Of a stretch of DNA of 35,181 nt, positions 2,983-35,043 are shown one piece after another. Position 1 is the first letter of the stretch, and the number at the start of each line of letters is the position of its first letter. Origin of the DNA: Anaerolineales bacterium (lineage in GTDB: Bacteria; Chloroflexota; Anaerolineae; Anaerolineales; Villigracilaceae); the NCBI GenBank assembly GCA_013360875.1, contig JABWAU010000028.1, positions 1 to 35,181 of the forward strand, written 5' to 3'. A program made the translations under genes and the position numbers. The notes beneath the pieces were generated by a model. It was not told the DNA's origin. It was given only the letters and a program-made list of their open reading frames with translations, and searched no databases.

Positions 2983-3033
2983 TAACCCATGTGATGTGAG
3001 ACTCTTATGGTGGATGAAAAGCGGCAGGAGATC

Positions 3034-3153
3034 CGTGACAAGGTCAATCTCGATATTTTCTGGCTGAGGGGTGTGTCGGTGGAGGATTCCGCCAATCTGC
3101 CCGAACCGGATATGATCGCAAATGAAATCGTCGAAGACTTGCGATCTGCGCTC
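3034..3153 (+). pseudogene. Fragment of a second hsdM 3' end
   Basis: Translates as RDKVNLDIFWLRGVSVEDSA and onward to NEIVEDLRSAL, matching the last part of the methyltransferase at 1331-1450 without gaps. By hand count the two 120-base segments differ at about 29 positions, about 76% identity, so this is an old paralogue or horizontally acquired relic, not a recent duplication. No catalytic region precedes it and it ends five bases before the convergent glycosidase gene's stop codon. Confidence 0.8.
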
Positions 3154-18059: not shown

Positions 18060-18129
18060 CGCGACACACCGTTCTCGAAGGATATCCGGCGGGCAGCGGA
18101 AAAATCTCGCGTTGCAGCAAAAGGCCGCG

Positions 18130-19620
18130 ATGAAAAGACCCCTCGCCTCATTCCTGACCCTCAGCCTGCTCCTCCTCTCCTGCAATTTCCTCCAGCCGAC
18201 GCCTTCCCCGCCTCCCTCCGCGCCCGGACCCGATCCCATGCAAACGCCCTGGGACGACCGCACCCACTTCAAAAGCGGATTGGTCGCATCGGCGCAATCG
18301 GTTTTGAATGGATTGGCAGGCGCAAGCGTCTATCGCATCGAATTCACGATCGCCGATAACCTGTACCAAGTCGCAGGAACGGAGGAGGTTCGATACACCA
18401 ACACGGAAGACGTTGCATTGAACGAAATCCACTTTCGGCTCTTCCCCAACATCCTCGGCGGCGGGATGACCGTTTCCAACCTGTCAGTGAATGGGCAATC
18501 CGCCGCGCCCCGATTCGGACTCGAAAACAGTTTGATGATCGTCCCATTGCCCGCGCCGCTCGAAGCAAATCAAAGCGTCGTTCTCAAAATGGATTACGCC
18601 GTCACCGTTCCGCAGGCGGTCGAATTGAATTACGGCGTGCTTGCCTACTACGACGACGTCCTCGCGCTCGCGCACGCGTATCCTATGATCGCCGTGTACG
18701 ACGACGAAGGCTGGAACGCGGAGATCCCGCCGCAGGATGGCGACGTCACGTATGCGGACGCGGCGTTCCATCTTGTACGCGTCCGCGCGCCGAAGGAATT
18801 AACGCTGGTCGCGTCCGGGCGTGAGATCAGCCGCGGCGAAGAGGGGCAGGCTCAGGTCCTGATTGTAGCGAACGGTCCCGCGCGCGATTTCTATCTGGCG
18901 GCGAGTCCAAAATACGAAAAAATCTCGCAAACATTCGGTGAAATAACCGTCAACAGTTACGCCCCAAGGGAACTCAGGGACGGTGCGCAATTCGCGCTGG
19001 AGGTTGCCGTCAGAGCCATTGACGCGTTCAGCGAACGTTACGCGCCCTACCCCTACACCGAATTCGACATCGTATCCACACCCACGCTCGCGCTCGGCAT
19101 CGAATACCCCGGCATGACCGCCATCGCTTCGCGCTTATATGATGGGAACCGCGATTCCCGCATGTACTTGGAATCGACCGTCGCGCACGAAGTTGGCCAT
19201 CAATGGTTCTACAACCTCGTCGGCGGCGATCAACTCGACGATCCCTGGCTGGACGAATCGCTCACTCAGTTCGTCACGCTTCAATATTTTGCGGATGAAT
19301 ATGGGAAAGTCGGGGAGGATGAATTCCGCGCCTCGCTGGAAGGCAGGTGGGCGCGCGTGAACAATGAAAAGATTCCCATCGGATTGCCCGTTTCCGCGTA
19401 TCGGGGTGCGGAGTATAGCGCCATCGTCTACGGGCGCGGCGCGTTGTTCTTCCTCGCATTGCGCGAGGAAATGGGAACGGATGCGTTCGATGCCTTTCTG
19501 AAGGAATATACCGCGTCGCTTTCGTGGGGTATCGCCGCGCCCGAATATTTGCAGTCGCTTGCCGAACAAAAATGCGCCTGCGAACTGGATGCGCTTTTCG
19601 AGGAGTGGGTGTATCCGTAG
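18130..19620 (+). CDS. M1-family (aminopeptidase N-like) metallopeptidase lipoprotein
   Basis: Exported zinc peptidase, 496 residues. The N terminus is a lipoprotein signal with Cys18 in LLLLSC, then a P/S-rich linker. The zinc site HEVGH (353-357) with Glu376, 18 residues after the second His (HExxH-x18-E), is complete. GIEYPGM (323-329) occupies the place of the family GAMEN exopeptidase motif. ATG 18130 is preferred over the in-frame TTG 18112 because the signal peptide begins there. The C-terminal helical domain of long M1 enzymes is absent. Probably degrades peptides outside the membrane. Confidence 0.9.
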   Translation: MKRPLASFLTLSLLLLSCNFLQPTPSPPPSAPGPDPMQTPWDDRTHFKSGLVASAQSVLNGLAGASVYRIEFTIADNLYQVAGTEEVRYTNTEDVALNEIHFRLFPNILGGGMTVSNLSVNGQSAAPRFGLENSLMIVPLPAPLEANQSVVLKMDYAVTVPQAVELNYGVLAYYDDVLALAHAYPMIAVYDDEGWNAEIPPQDGDVTYADAAFHLVRVRAPKELTLVASGREISRGEEGQAQVLIVANGPARDFYLAASPKYEKISQTFGEITVNSYAPRELRDGAQFALEVAVRAIDAFSERYAPYPYTEFDIVSTPTLALGIEYPGMTAIASRLYDGNRDSRMYLESTVAHEVGHQWFYNLVGGDQLDDPWLDESLTQFVTLQYFADEYGKVGEDEFRASLEGRWARVNNEKIPIGLPVSAYRGAEYSAIVYGRGALFFLALREEMGTDAFDAFLKEYTASLSWGIAAPEYLQSLAEQKCACELDALFEEWVYP

Positions 19621-19665
19621 CGCAAGATGCCGTCCTTCGATGAACTCAGGACAAGCCTTGCGCTA
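19618..19665. repeat. Palindrome-bounded repeat containing a CCTTCGATGAACTCAGG core
   Basis: Arms TAGCGCAAG (19618-19626, including the stop codon of the peptidase gene) and CTTGCGCTA (19657-19665) bound a core CCTTCGATGAACTCAGGACAAGCC (19634-19657). A close relative of this core lies inside moeA at 34943-34971. Confidence 0.65.
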
Positions 19666-30015: not shown

Positions 30016-30954
30016 ATGCCCAAACTTCTGATCCTGTCCCGCGAACCAGACGAATACAAAAAACTCATCCGGCAAGCCGACCTGCCGGACCTGGAAATTG
30101 TCGCGGAGTTCGCGGAATGCGACGTCGTCCTCGGCGAACCGCGCATCATTCGAGAACACCTTCCCCAACTGCCGAACGTGAAATGGATCCAGTCCATGTA
30201 CGCGGGCGTCGAGGCGTTGACGGATCCCACCCTGCGCCGCGATTACGTCCTGACCAACGCGCGCGGCGTCTTCGGCGAACTGATGTCCGAGTACGTGTTC
30301 GGGTACATGCTGGCGCACGAGAAGAAAATCTTCGAGCGATTCAAAGCGCAGCAGGCGAAGAAATGGGACCGGTTCGAATCGGGTTTGTTGCGCGGCAAGA
30401 CGCTGGGCTTGCTGGGCGTGGGTTCGATTGGCGCGCATCTGGCAGGAACGGCAAAGCATTTTGGGATGACGGTGTGGGGATACTCGCGCGGAAGTGAGAG
30501 GAGCACACACGTAGACAGGTATTTTCATCCCCCACCCCAACCCTCTCCCGGCGGGAGAGGGGGAATCATCGAATTTGCCAACGGGTTGGATTATCTCGTC
30601 GTGGTTCTCCCGCGTACAAAAGACACCGACAAGATCGTGGATGCAAACCTGCTCGACGCCCTGCCGCCGCACGCCATTCTCCTCAACGTTGGACGCGGGA
30701 ACGCGGTGGATGAGTCCGCATTGGTGGAGGCGTTGGAACATGGCAAGATCGCGGGAGCAGTTTTGGATGTCACGGAAAAAGAGCCGCTTCCCAAAGACCA
30801 TCCGTTTTGGGTAACCCCGAATCTGCTCCTGACCTTTCACACGTCCGCGATGAGTTATCCCGAAGACATCACGAAGTTGTTCGTCGAAAATTATCGTCTC
30901 TACATCGAGGGCAAGCCGTTGAAATATCGGGTTGATTTCGAGAGGGGGTATTAG
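30016..30954 (+). CDS. D-2-hydroxyacid dehydrogenase (NAD(P)-dependent)
   Basis: 312 residues. The NAD-binding motif is GVGSIG (134-139) and the catalytic residues Arg227 (NVGRG), Glu256 (EKEPLP) and His275 (FHTS) are all present, so it should reduce 2-oxoacids such as glyoxylate, hydroxypyruvate or similar. It resembles the GhrA-like group. Residues about 172-182 (PPPQPSPGGRG) come from a palindromic repeat inserted in frame between the second beta-strand region and IIEFANGLDYLV. It lies between the GlsB-type gene and the dehydratase gene, all on one strand. Confidence 0.9.
   Translation: MPKLLILSREPDEYKKLIRQADLPDLEIVAEFAECDVVLGEPRIIREHLPQLPNVKWIQSMYAGVEALTDPTLRRDYVLTNARGVFGELMSEYVFGYMLAHEKKIFERFKAQQAKKWDRFESGLLRGKTLGLLGVGSIGAHLAGTAKHFGMTVWGYSRGSERSTHVDRYFHPPPQPSPGGRGGIIEFANGLDYLVVVLPRTKDTDKIVDANLLDALPPHAILLNVGRGNAVDESALVEALEHGKIAGAVLDVTEKEPLPKDHPFWVTPNLLLTFHTSAMSYPEDITKLFVENYRLYIEGKPLKYRVDFERGY
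30541..30561. repeat. REP-like palindrome inside the dehydrogenase gene, translated in frame
   Basis: Arms CCCTCTCCC and GGGAGAGGG around GGC. It encodes PSPGGRG (176-182) and is preceded by CCCCCACCCCAA, the classic context of this widespread repeat. The frame is kept. Confidence 0.8.
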
Positions 30955-33676: not shown

Positions 33677-33710
33677 TTGCGCAGACGTTAGAGAACGTCC
33701 GTTACGCGCG
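33677..33710. repeat. MITE-like element, fragment C
   Basis: GCAGACGTTAGAGAACGTC (33681-33699) is identical to 29604-29622 in copy B, and TTGCGC before it and TACGCG after it also correspond. The outer parts are missing. It lies between the frameshifted gene and moeA, which converge. Confidence 0.65.
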
Positions 33711-33747: not shown

Positions 33748-35043
33748 TCAAATCAGGAGGACCTCCACGATCTCGCCGGCGCTCAAGCCTGTCGTGTCGG
33801 AAGGGATGCGAAGCAAACCGTCTGCGTTCGCCAGCGTGAAGATCAGGTTGCTTTTGCCGAAGATGGGATCGGCTTCATAATTAATGATTGACGATTGACG
33901 ATTTACGATTAGTTTCACGGGCCACCAGTCTTCGCGGCCCGCCTGGGACGGCAGGTTGACGGTTAGCCGCGCAAGCACATTCGCCTCTGGTTTTGGCAGC
34001 GCCCCCAATAATTTTTCGATCACGGGAACGACAAACAAATACCCGTTCACCAACGCGCTGACGGGGTTGCCGGGCAAGCCGATCACCGCCTTGCCGTTGC
34101 ATACGCCGAGGATGGTCGGTTTGCCAGGTCTTGTATTGATGCCGTGGACTAGAACGCCCGGCTCGCCCAACGAGCGGATGACCTCGGCGGTCATGTCTCT
34201 TGTGGAGGCGGACGACCCGGCTGTGATAAGGACCACGTCACAATCGGACAACGCCTGCGCCGCCGCTTCTTTCAACGCCGGAAACTGGTCGCCGACGATC
34301 CCATAGCGTTTTGCCACGCCTCCGCTCTTTTCGACGAGCGCACTGAGTGTGTACGAGTTGATGTCGCGAACCTGACCCGGTCGCGGCTTCAGACCCGGGT
34401 TTATTACTTCGTCCCCGGTCGAAATCAATGCCACCTTCACCTGCCTGACCACACGAACAGACGTGATCCCCAACGCCATCAAGCCGCCGATCTCCGCCGG
34501 GCGGATGCGAGTCCCCTTGTGGAGGACGAGTCCTCCCTGCGCGACATCTTCTCCAATGTGAATGACGTTTTCGCCGACCGCCACCGCGCGGAAGATTTCG
34601 ATTTCACGCGGCAGACCTCCGGGGTCCTTCGAGACCTCGGAGGTCTGTTGGGTATATTCCAACATGACGACCGCGTCTGCGCCGTTCGGAAGCATCCCGC
34701 CGGTGTGGATCAACGCGCATTGACCCTCTCCAATTCCGAACGCGGGCGCGTCTCCCATGGGGACTTCGCCGACGAGGGTGAGATAGGCGGGCAGGGATTC
34801 GGACGCGCCGAACGTATCCCGCGCGCGGACCGCGTACCCGTCAACTGTTGTCCGCTGGAAATCGGGGAGCGGATGCGACGCGAGGATGTCCTCGGCGAGG
34901 ACGCGGCTCAAAGATGAGATCACGTCAATTGATTCAGAATCAGGCTTGCCCTGAGTTTGATCGAAGGGCATCGGATCGGGAAGATGCGAGAGGAGGAGGG
35001 CACGGGCTTCGTCGGGAGGGAGGAGAGTCAGGAATTCGGGCAT
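33748..35043 (-). CDS. moeA: Molybdopterin molybdenumtransferase MoeA
   Basis: Inserts molybdate into adenylylated molybdopterin, the last general step of molybdenum cofactor synthesis (EC 2.10.1.1). The 431-residue protein has the MoeA marks LPDFQRTTVDGYAVRA, TGGMLPNGADAVVMLEY, ISTGDEV, TAGSSASTRDMT and GLPGNPVSA in order. Three short repeats are translated in frame: residues 25-34 (MPFDQTQGKP), 133-144 (QTSEVSKDPGGL) and about 378-386 (from a GATTGAC tandem). All three lie in loops between conserved blocks. ATG 35043 begins family similarity; no strong Shine-Dalgarno is seen. No other Mo-cofactor gene is in the window. Confidence 0.95.
   Translation of the reverse strand: MPEFLTLLPPDEARALLLSHLPDPMPFDQTQGKPDSESIDVISSLSRVLAEDILASHPLPDFQRTTVDGYAVRARDTFGASESLPAYLTLVGEVPMGDAPAFGIGEGQCALIHTGGMLPNGADAVVMLEYTQQTSEVSKDPGGLPREIEIFRAVAVGENVIHIGEDVAQGGLVLHKGTRIRPAEIGGLMALGITSVRVVRQVKVALISTGDEVINPGLKPRPGQVRDINSYTLSALVEKSGGVAKRYGIVGDQFPALKEAAAQALSDCDVVLITAGSSASTRDMTAEVIRSLGEPGVLVHGINTRPGKPTILGVCNGKAVIGLPGNPVSALVNGYLFVVPVIEKLLGALPKPEANVLARLTVNLPSQAGREDWWPVKLIVNRQSSIINYEADPIFGKSNLIFTLANADGLLRIPSDTTGLSAGEIVEVLLI
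33886..33912. repeat. Heptamer tandem repeat inside moeA
   Basis: GATTGAC, GATTGAC, GATTTAC, then GATTAG in direct tandem. Three seven-base units make 21 bases, which keeps the reading frame. It encodes part of VNRQSSIIN just before EADPIFGKS. Confidence 0.75.
34613..34646. repeat. Palindromic repeat AGACCTCC/GGAGGTCT inside moeA
   Basis: Eight-base perfect arms at 34613-34620 and 34639-34646, with a nested GACCTC/GAGGTC pair. It encodes QTSEVSKDPGGL between the conserved VVMLEY and EIEIFRAV, where relatives have a short loop. Confidence 0.75.
34943..34971. repeat. CCTTCGAT-AACTCAGG repeat inside moeA
   Basis: On the minus strand CCCTTCGATCAAACTCAGGG followed by CAAGCC; it is a near-copy of 19634-19657 after the peptidase gene. 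It encodes MPFDQTQGKP (25-34) in the N-terminal loop. Confidence 0.7.

Follow-up and report, generated by a model that had tools for sequence, protein, structure and literature searches.

Several families of small dispersed repeats are translated in frame in three loops of MoeA from Anaerolineales

The window, the whole stretch of 35,181 nucleotides analysed here, is contig C3 of an Anaerolineales genome of 3.99 Mb assembled in 208 contigs. Judged from its sequence, the ORF on the reverse strand at 33748-35043 is a complete MoeA, with scores of 146 bits for MoeA_N (cut-off 30.8), 103.9 bits for MoCF_biosynth (cut-off 26.6) and 54.8 bits for MoeA_C (cut-off 22.1). Twenty eight distinct sequences from solved MoeA, gephyrin and CNX1 structures were found to match this protein at E ≤ 1e-20. 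A second moeA paralogue, 37% identical to that of the window, was identified elsewhere in the genome (C172:7742-8953), and a GATTGAC array (C172:7709-7726) was observed to stop 12 bases ahead of the likely ATG of this paralogue.

Three different repeats, designated families A, B and C, were identified within the window moeA at positions termed sites 1, 2 and 3 (Table 1), each being translated in frame as the initial annotation had described. These inserts span 25-36 nt. The pattern used for family A (CCTTCGAT..CTCAGG) matched at 34950-34967 (-), coding for PFDQTQG at residues 26-32, and was matched twice in the window (0.00 expected by chance). Family B gave four matches with up to two mismatches (0.14 expected), three of them within the site 2 hairpin and the fourth elsewhere in moeA at 34180-34193, while family C gave two overlapping matches with up to three mismatches (0.00 expected). 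When folded as single-stranded DNA, the site 2 hairpin reached -13.9 kcal/mol (z -4.6, with none of 200 shuffles as good). The ability of families A and C to form a hairpin alone was weak or absent (z -1.9 and +0.8, respectively), and the site 3 array was supported by its period-7 score (p 0.005). Compared to 1uz5, the best-matching solved MoeA, the window protein possesses extra residues at sites 2 and 3, and compared to the second-best, 1xi8, at site 2 only.

Table 1. Position of the moeA gene and of the small repeats in the window.
Feature	Position	Strand	Remarks
Family A, intergenic copy	19634..19650	+	Between ORFs 18112-19620 and 19716/19791-21170
Family D hairpin (CCCTCTCCCGGCGGGAGAGGG)	30541..30561	+	In frame in 2-hydroxyacid dehydrogenase-like ORF 30016-30954
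moeA-like gene	33748..35043	-	431 aa; Pfam MoeA_N, MoCF_biosynth and MoeA_C; 80 named relatives
Site 3, family C heptamer array (GATTGAC)	33886..33910	+	GTCAATC on the coding strand; IVNRQSSI, residues ~379-387
Site 2, family B hairpin (GACCTCSGAGGTC)	34612..34647	-	36 nt; codes for QTSEVSKDPGGL, residues 133-144
Site 1, family A repeat (CCCTTCGATCAAACTCAGGGCAAGCC)	34943..34969	-	Codes for PFDQTQGKP; 40 matches in own genome, 0 for the reversed-pattern control

Two further repeats were identified outside of moeA (Table 1). The family D hairpin of the dehydrogenase-like ORF is translated as PPPQPSPGGRGG / PPPQPSPGGRGGI and was found in none of the 17 relatives in which this region could be read, out of 24 relatives scanned (the widened form of the motif for this region matched 18 of 25 loci, including that of the window). 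Elsewhere in the window, the C-terminal peptide (DKVNLDIFWLRDESLEDS..) of ORF 116-1495, which we take to be DNA-methylase-like, was seen to recur in a small ORF (3007-3150) situated past a glycosyltransferase-like ORF (1639-2982), as if this tail had been duplicated or split.

Relatives of the window MoeA were obtained with a scan seeded with six of its peptides, one of which (PDPMPFDQ) spans site 1. Of the 83 found, the best 80 were retained; as the seeds were the window's own peptides, these 80 relatives are not a random sample. They comprise Chloroflexota records, mostly MAGs labelled as Anaerolineales, Anaerolineae or Chloroflexi, plus one Thermosediminibacter, with the closest (L057) being 92% identical to the window protein. 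A same-genus search returned 11 moeA orthologues including that of the window, and nine of the other ten were genes of the contigs already named, with L282 the only new one. The moeA genes of the 80 named contigs were translated and aligned together with that of the window (81 sequences). Length was then compared across 77 of these (L131, L134, L090 and L123 excluded), disregarding the ends that lie outside the outermost shared columns. Differences of more than one amino acid were found at three places only, namely sites 1, 2 and 3. Site 1 (window residues 22-33) showed 5 length classes, site 2 (residues 134-146) showed 20 classes of 1 to 28 aa and site 3 (residues 380-390) showed 19 classes of 5 to 37 aa. 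This alignment confirmed the placement of the inserts between conserved MoeA blocks with the frame kept. An assembly artefact was rejected as an explanation, since 80 named contigs belonging to separate records show the pattern.

The gaps in relatives that the initial annotation had called for were present at all three sites. Site 1 was filled in only two of the 78 relatives covering the region (L057 and L066) and absent in the remaining 76, with L066, a 74% relative, carrying 22 nt of repeat A (CCCTTCGATCAAACTCAGGGCA) identical to those of the window. The contents of site 2 (n=80 including the window, L131 excluded) were classed as family E in 23 sequences, B in 10, F in 7, other in 9 and short in 31, and those of site 3 (n=81 including the window) as heptamers (family C) in 31, D in 17, F in 2, other in 14 and short in 17, where "other" denotes inserts that fit no defined class. 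Family E at site 2 is a GTA(G/A)GGGC hairpin and family F is defined by CCACGGAG..CTCCGTGG. These labels were given by eye from the inserts, except for the heptamers, which were assigned by score; strict patterns find fewer. The initial annotation had named, as evidence against insertion, the presence of the same residues with unrelated codon sequence in most relatives. This criterion should be reworded for sites 2 and 3: most relatives do hold extra residues at site 2 (49/80) and site 3 (64/81), and approximately 80% of these long inserts (40/49 and 50/64) could be assigned to a repeat class, so that they are mostly other repeats rather than unrelated unique sequence.

Strict patterns for the six families matched 30 of 80 moeA genes (L131 excluded). 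Every match lay within the three sites, with the rest of the gene free of them: site 1 held A in 2 genes, site 2 held E in 10, B in 6 and F in 2, and site 3 held D in 10, C in 7 and F in 2. The same patterns were matched in 3 of 70 pairs of 1.4-kb moeA flanks (2.8 kb each). Shuffle tests at p ≤ 0.01 detected a hairpin in 20 of the 49 long inserts of site 2, and among the 64 of site 3 a hairpin in 13, a heptamer repeat in 32 and either in 43; no short allele passed (0/31 at site 2 and 0/17 at site 3). The 29 long site 2 inserts that failed this threshold did so by a crude stem score, and some of them look decayed.

An AlphaFold2 model of the window MoeA, built with an alignment of 41 of the 81 sequences (mean pLDDT 86.0, pTM 0.76), predicts that all three sites are in coil or turn. 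Site 1 was modelled in the coil leading from helix 10-19 to strand 36-40. Site 2 is flanked by strands 131-133 and 147-150 and site 3 by strands 371-380 and 389-393, with pLDDT falling below 50 at residues 26-33 and 137-139.

Similar behaviour was observed in one loop of UvrA, for which 30 loci were fetched from the 61 genomes searched. This loop (residues 249-275 of L178) showed 18 length classes in 30 sequences, with a hairpin or heptamer repeat at p ≤ 0.01 in 16 of 21 long forms compared to 1 of 9 short forms. At two other places in UvrA, only two lengths were seen (0 or 4 aa and 0 or 3 aa), with one and five sequences, respectively, making the difference. The insert of UvrA L179 scored both as a hairpin and for period 7 (p 0.005 in each case), and some UvrA inserts resemble two heptamer arrays in inverted orientation, so that both arms of a hairpin can be built from heptamers.

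The initial annotation had also expected other genomic copies of the repeats, and many were found, with family A matching at 40 positions of its own genome, B at 19 sites and C in 16 arrays. For family B, the pattern GACCTCN{0,12}GAGGTC gave 14 strand hits at 7 places but also 6 strand hits for its control, and the looser pattern GACYTCSGARGTC (19 sites, control 0) was therefore relied upon. The 16 arrays of family C were merged from 19 matches (control 0), and family D (CCCTCTCCC..GGGAGAGGG) was found at 22 sites. Beyond this genome, family A was matched in 103 of 151 genomes of the order, although a good many had no more than the one or two matches that the control also reaches. Family B was present in 10 of 10 genomes searched (its own and nine picked for B in MoeA) at 4 to 58 sites with controls of 0 or 1, and family D in 53 of the 61 genomes of the host's taxonomic family. 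Family E (GTAGGGGCG..CGCCC) was found in 55 of the 61, some with tens of copies, though its controls were not zero, so its counts mean little in low-copy genomes, including the window's own (7 hits compared to 2 for the control).

The location of copies was determined with a simple codon-usage gene caller, which called 408 genes in a 424,181-base sample of the genome (approximately 89% coding). Eleven of the 40 family A copies were called in frame, 8 were uncertain (three of these, L003, L018 and L019, lying inside ORFs of more than 650 aa) and 21 were apparently intergenic; with approximately 89% of the sample coding, this indicates that copies avoid genes overall. The in-frame hosts of family A are presumably UvrA-, PheT-, DnaE- and thiamine pyrophosphokinase-like proteins, together with what we take to be xanthine-dehydrogenase-type, AMP-binding ligase-like and formylglycine-generating-enzyme-like proteins. 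L018, which we assume to be a CydC-like ABC protein, contains two linkers resembling translated heptamer repeats (SQVKSQKSKVELHLQPFDIAQGMP..; VVSNQLSVISEQSQITEH), one of them with an A copy. The 16 family C arrays comprised 9 that were apparently intergenic, 4 uncertain cases and 3 in frame. Each of the three in-frame arrays is read from the GTCAATC strand; on the GATTGAC strand, an array of at least three such units has a TGA in every frame.

The six families together accounted for 17 copies in the 424,181-base sample, of which 9 were in called genes, 3 of these being in moeA. The genome is thus not saturated with small repeats, contrary to one proposal of the initial annotation, and moeA stands out. 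Only four 11-mers in this sample exceeded the cut-off (at least 10 copies and more than five times expectation), and none came from family A, family B or the GATTGAC array, although one of the four, ACTGATCACTG, is a heptamer repeat with a different unit. The most over-represented were CGTTAGAGAAC and CGTTCTCTAAC (13 and 12 copies compared to 0.1-0.2 expected), two overlapping 11-mers that represent a further repeat family. In the window this family lies at 33684-33699 (GACGTTAGAGAACGTC), between ORFs just downstream of moeA.

The distribution of repeat families was compared to a MoeA tree from which the insert columns had been left out (quick IQ-TREE, SH-aLRT support only). With all states included, the contents of site 2 required at least 32 changes on the tree compared to a shuffled mean of 42 (0 of 500 shuffles as low), and those of site 3 at least 35 compared to 43 (2 of 500), indicating that site contents, with the short and other states counted, are partly inherited. 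With "other" and "short" sequences excluded, there were 13 changes for site 2 (n=40) against a shuffled mean of 15.3 (31 of 500 as low) and 17 for site 3 (n=50) against 16.1 (402 of 500 as low). Family identity among repeat-bearing sequences is therefore nearly independent of the MoeA tree. Sister pairs with support of at least 96 were found to be unlike at both sites, with L059 and L058 each carrying B at site 2 and C at site 3 while their respective sisters L085 and L060 carry F and D. In a third such pair, L086 has family E at site 2 and C at site 3, whereas L098 is short at site 2 and has D at site 3.

Within the heptamer arrays, units were 0.93 identical inside a gene compared to 0.66 between species, the former value being partly built in as these sequences were picked for periodicity, and 17 consensus units were counted in 31 arrays. 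Third bases at shared amino acids agreed at 0.70-0.88 inside repeats and 0.55-0.58 in the rest of the gene, a contrast that is inflated because the sequences were picked for alike repeats and single control windows reach 0.83-0.95. This suggests, as support rather than proof, that what is shared is the DNA rather than the peptide.

Taken together, the identity of the repeats, their frame, the restriction of indels and repeats to three loops, the several families per site, the near independence of family from the tree and the like behaviour of one UvrA loop were observed directly. These are probably best explained by dispersed small repeats that recurrently settle and replace one another in tolerant loops of MoeA, with those that keep the frame surviving. 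Unrelated families, both hairpins of approximately 20-50 nt and heptamer arrays, are spread through these genomes, with many of the copies situated between genes. A copy arriving in a surface loop with a stop-free frame and a length divisible by three would survive and be translated, and the three coil or beta-turn loops of MoeA would accept such repeats. These loops are presumed to lie at the protein surface, with inserts close to neutral for the protein, and a resident repeat could be lost or swapped for one of another family faster than the gene tree records. Hairpins may move by template switching or by having their single strands copied, and heptamers through slippage plus copying. The selection for frame-preserving insertion suggested by the initial annotation is not needed, since the pattern is accounted for if copies that keep the frame survive in tolerant loops. 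Y1_Tnp genes were found in 60 of the 61 genomes of the taxonomic family. The six families were searched at 33 Y1_Tnp loci, these being part of the matches listed, and repeats were present at 3 of them; the corresponding figures were 2 of 30 for unrelated loci and 8 of 99 for stretches taken from the window's own genome. With no enrichment near Y1_Tnp genes, mobilisation by RAYT/Y1 is unsupported for these families, and no mobilising enzyme was found by this comparison. This counts against the explanation given above, as does the fact that no target duplications were noticed in the few pairs compared by eye.

An unlikely alternative to the settling of repeats in tolerant loops is that insertion is targeted, or that repeats are replaced in place by a nuclease or by recombination with existing repeats, the loops acting as docking sites and not just tolerant ones. 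Repeat starts were found to recur at the same base (family D at offset 12 in 14 of 17, family E at offset 15 in 14 of 23), more tightly than pure tolerance predicts, which targeted insertion or partial inheritance may explain, and the swapping of families between close sisters at the same place and the unusual likeness of silent positions inside repeats point the same way. However, the limits of frame and loop alone narrow the possible starts, other offsets were also observed (E at 11, 12 and 16; B at 7, 10 and 12; F, with a loose motif, at 4, 15, 17, 26 and 36), and the same families were also found in UvrA and other genes, at places of unrelated sequence. It is similarly doubtful that conserved enzymes of this order carry docking loops with fixed codons, from which one family is removed and another installed cleanly in frame more often than species split; if so, loop content would reflect a rapid exchange of cassettes in place rather than tolerated debris alone. 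Local birth of the repeats, heptamers by slippage and hairpins by template switching in situ without copying from elsewhere, would account for heptamer arrays that are homogeneous within a gene and differ between species, in sequences picked for periodicity. It is rather less probable again, as copies of the hairpin families B and D were found at many loci with reversed controls near zero, family E being less clean.

It is improbable, and already disfavoured, that the inserts are old and inherited, having diverged and being hairpin-like by chance or through selection on mRNA structure. The tree signal seen when short and other states are counted is in keeping with this, and several D inserts have similar downstream codons (FSA/LSA), consistent with some inheritance, but one site can hold unrelated families in sister species, the family present in repeat-bearing sequences hardly follows the tree, and D and B have many genomic copies. 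An adaptive role, with MoeA or UvrA being tuned through the peptide that an insert encodes or through its mRNA hairpin, seems very improbable: hairpins can be strong, as at site 2 of the window, and repeats are far commoner in moeA than in its flanks, yet the peptides occupying a given loop are unrelated and many relatives have no insert at all.

MoeA offers a natural series across many species, with a given loop of one enzyme being either empty or filled by different small repeats, so that one short locus could be used to test the movement and removal of REP-like repeats and the gain of new protein loop sequence. It also carries a warning that loop peptides such as PFDQTQGKP, PSPxGRGQGEG and VNRQSSIVN in these proteins represent translated DNA repeats rather than conserved motifs. 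In a literature search of titles and abstracts among the matches listed, with subscription journals thinly covered, no report was found of repeat turnover in MoeA loops, of MoeA as a repeat host or of same-site turnover of several families across many species.

Cyanobacterial STRRs are heptamer direct repeats dispersed in the genome, and the arrays described here share with heptamer STRRs the dispersal of tandem 7-nt units, with 16 arrays in the window's own genome and period-7 signal in half of the long site 3 inserts. The TAACTGA heptamer repeats of Beggiatoaceae are called intergenic in the title of the paper describing them (PMC4679880), whereas the present arrays are also translated and their unit differs between species at one site. 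Enterobacterial RU elements (103-168 bp) and Coxiella MITEs are small mobile sequences of which some are intragenic, and the openings of their abstracts mention no same-site replacement (PMC2759123, PMC5896051). Compared to RAYT-mobilised REP/REPIN elements, the present repeats differ in that Y1 loci carry them no more often than control loci. In other bacteria, intragenic GTAG/CGTC REPs are described as short tagged palindromes in uvrA, in DnaE-type polymerase genes and in tRNA synthetase genes, with GTAG repeats also occurring in Chloroflexi, and different REPs lie at about the same site in recB of two Xanthomonas species; recB is reported as the same-site case, the other genes of that category having different sites (PMC3733652). 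In the case of family E, which is absent from the window moeA, the site 2 inserts of relatives begin with GTAG or GTAA, and the pattern of this family is widespread in the genomes searched but has controls that are not zero. Repeats A, B and C of the window have no GTAG tag at their ends. Judged against that account, the turnover described here is unlike that of GTAG/CGTC REPs in affecting the same site of two enzymes in many species, and in including non-GTAG families and heptamers.

The likeness to Rickettsia palindromic elements (RPEs) drawn by the initial annotation is an apt one. RPEs are described as several families of palindromic repeats of approximately 150 bp that are inserted in frame in unrelated genes and translated with a conserved peptide (PMC10969869). 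In-frame insertion into ORFs of conserved proteins is shared, here with MoeA, UvrA and further ORFs of the window's own genome. On the published description of RPEs, the Anaerolineales repeats differ in their smaller units (approximately 20-50 nt), in peptides that are unrelated between families, in the inclusion of heptamer arrays and in the filling of one loop by different families across the order. Order-wide, same-site turnover of several families thus appears to be new, with in-frame REPs and RPEs as its precedents.
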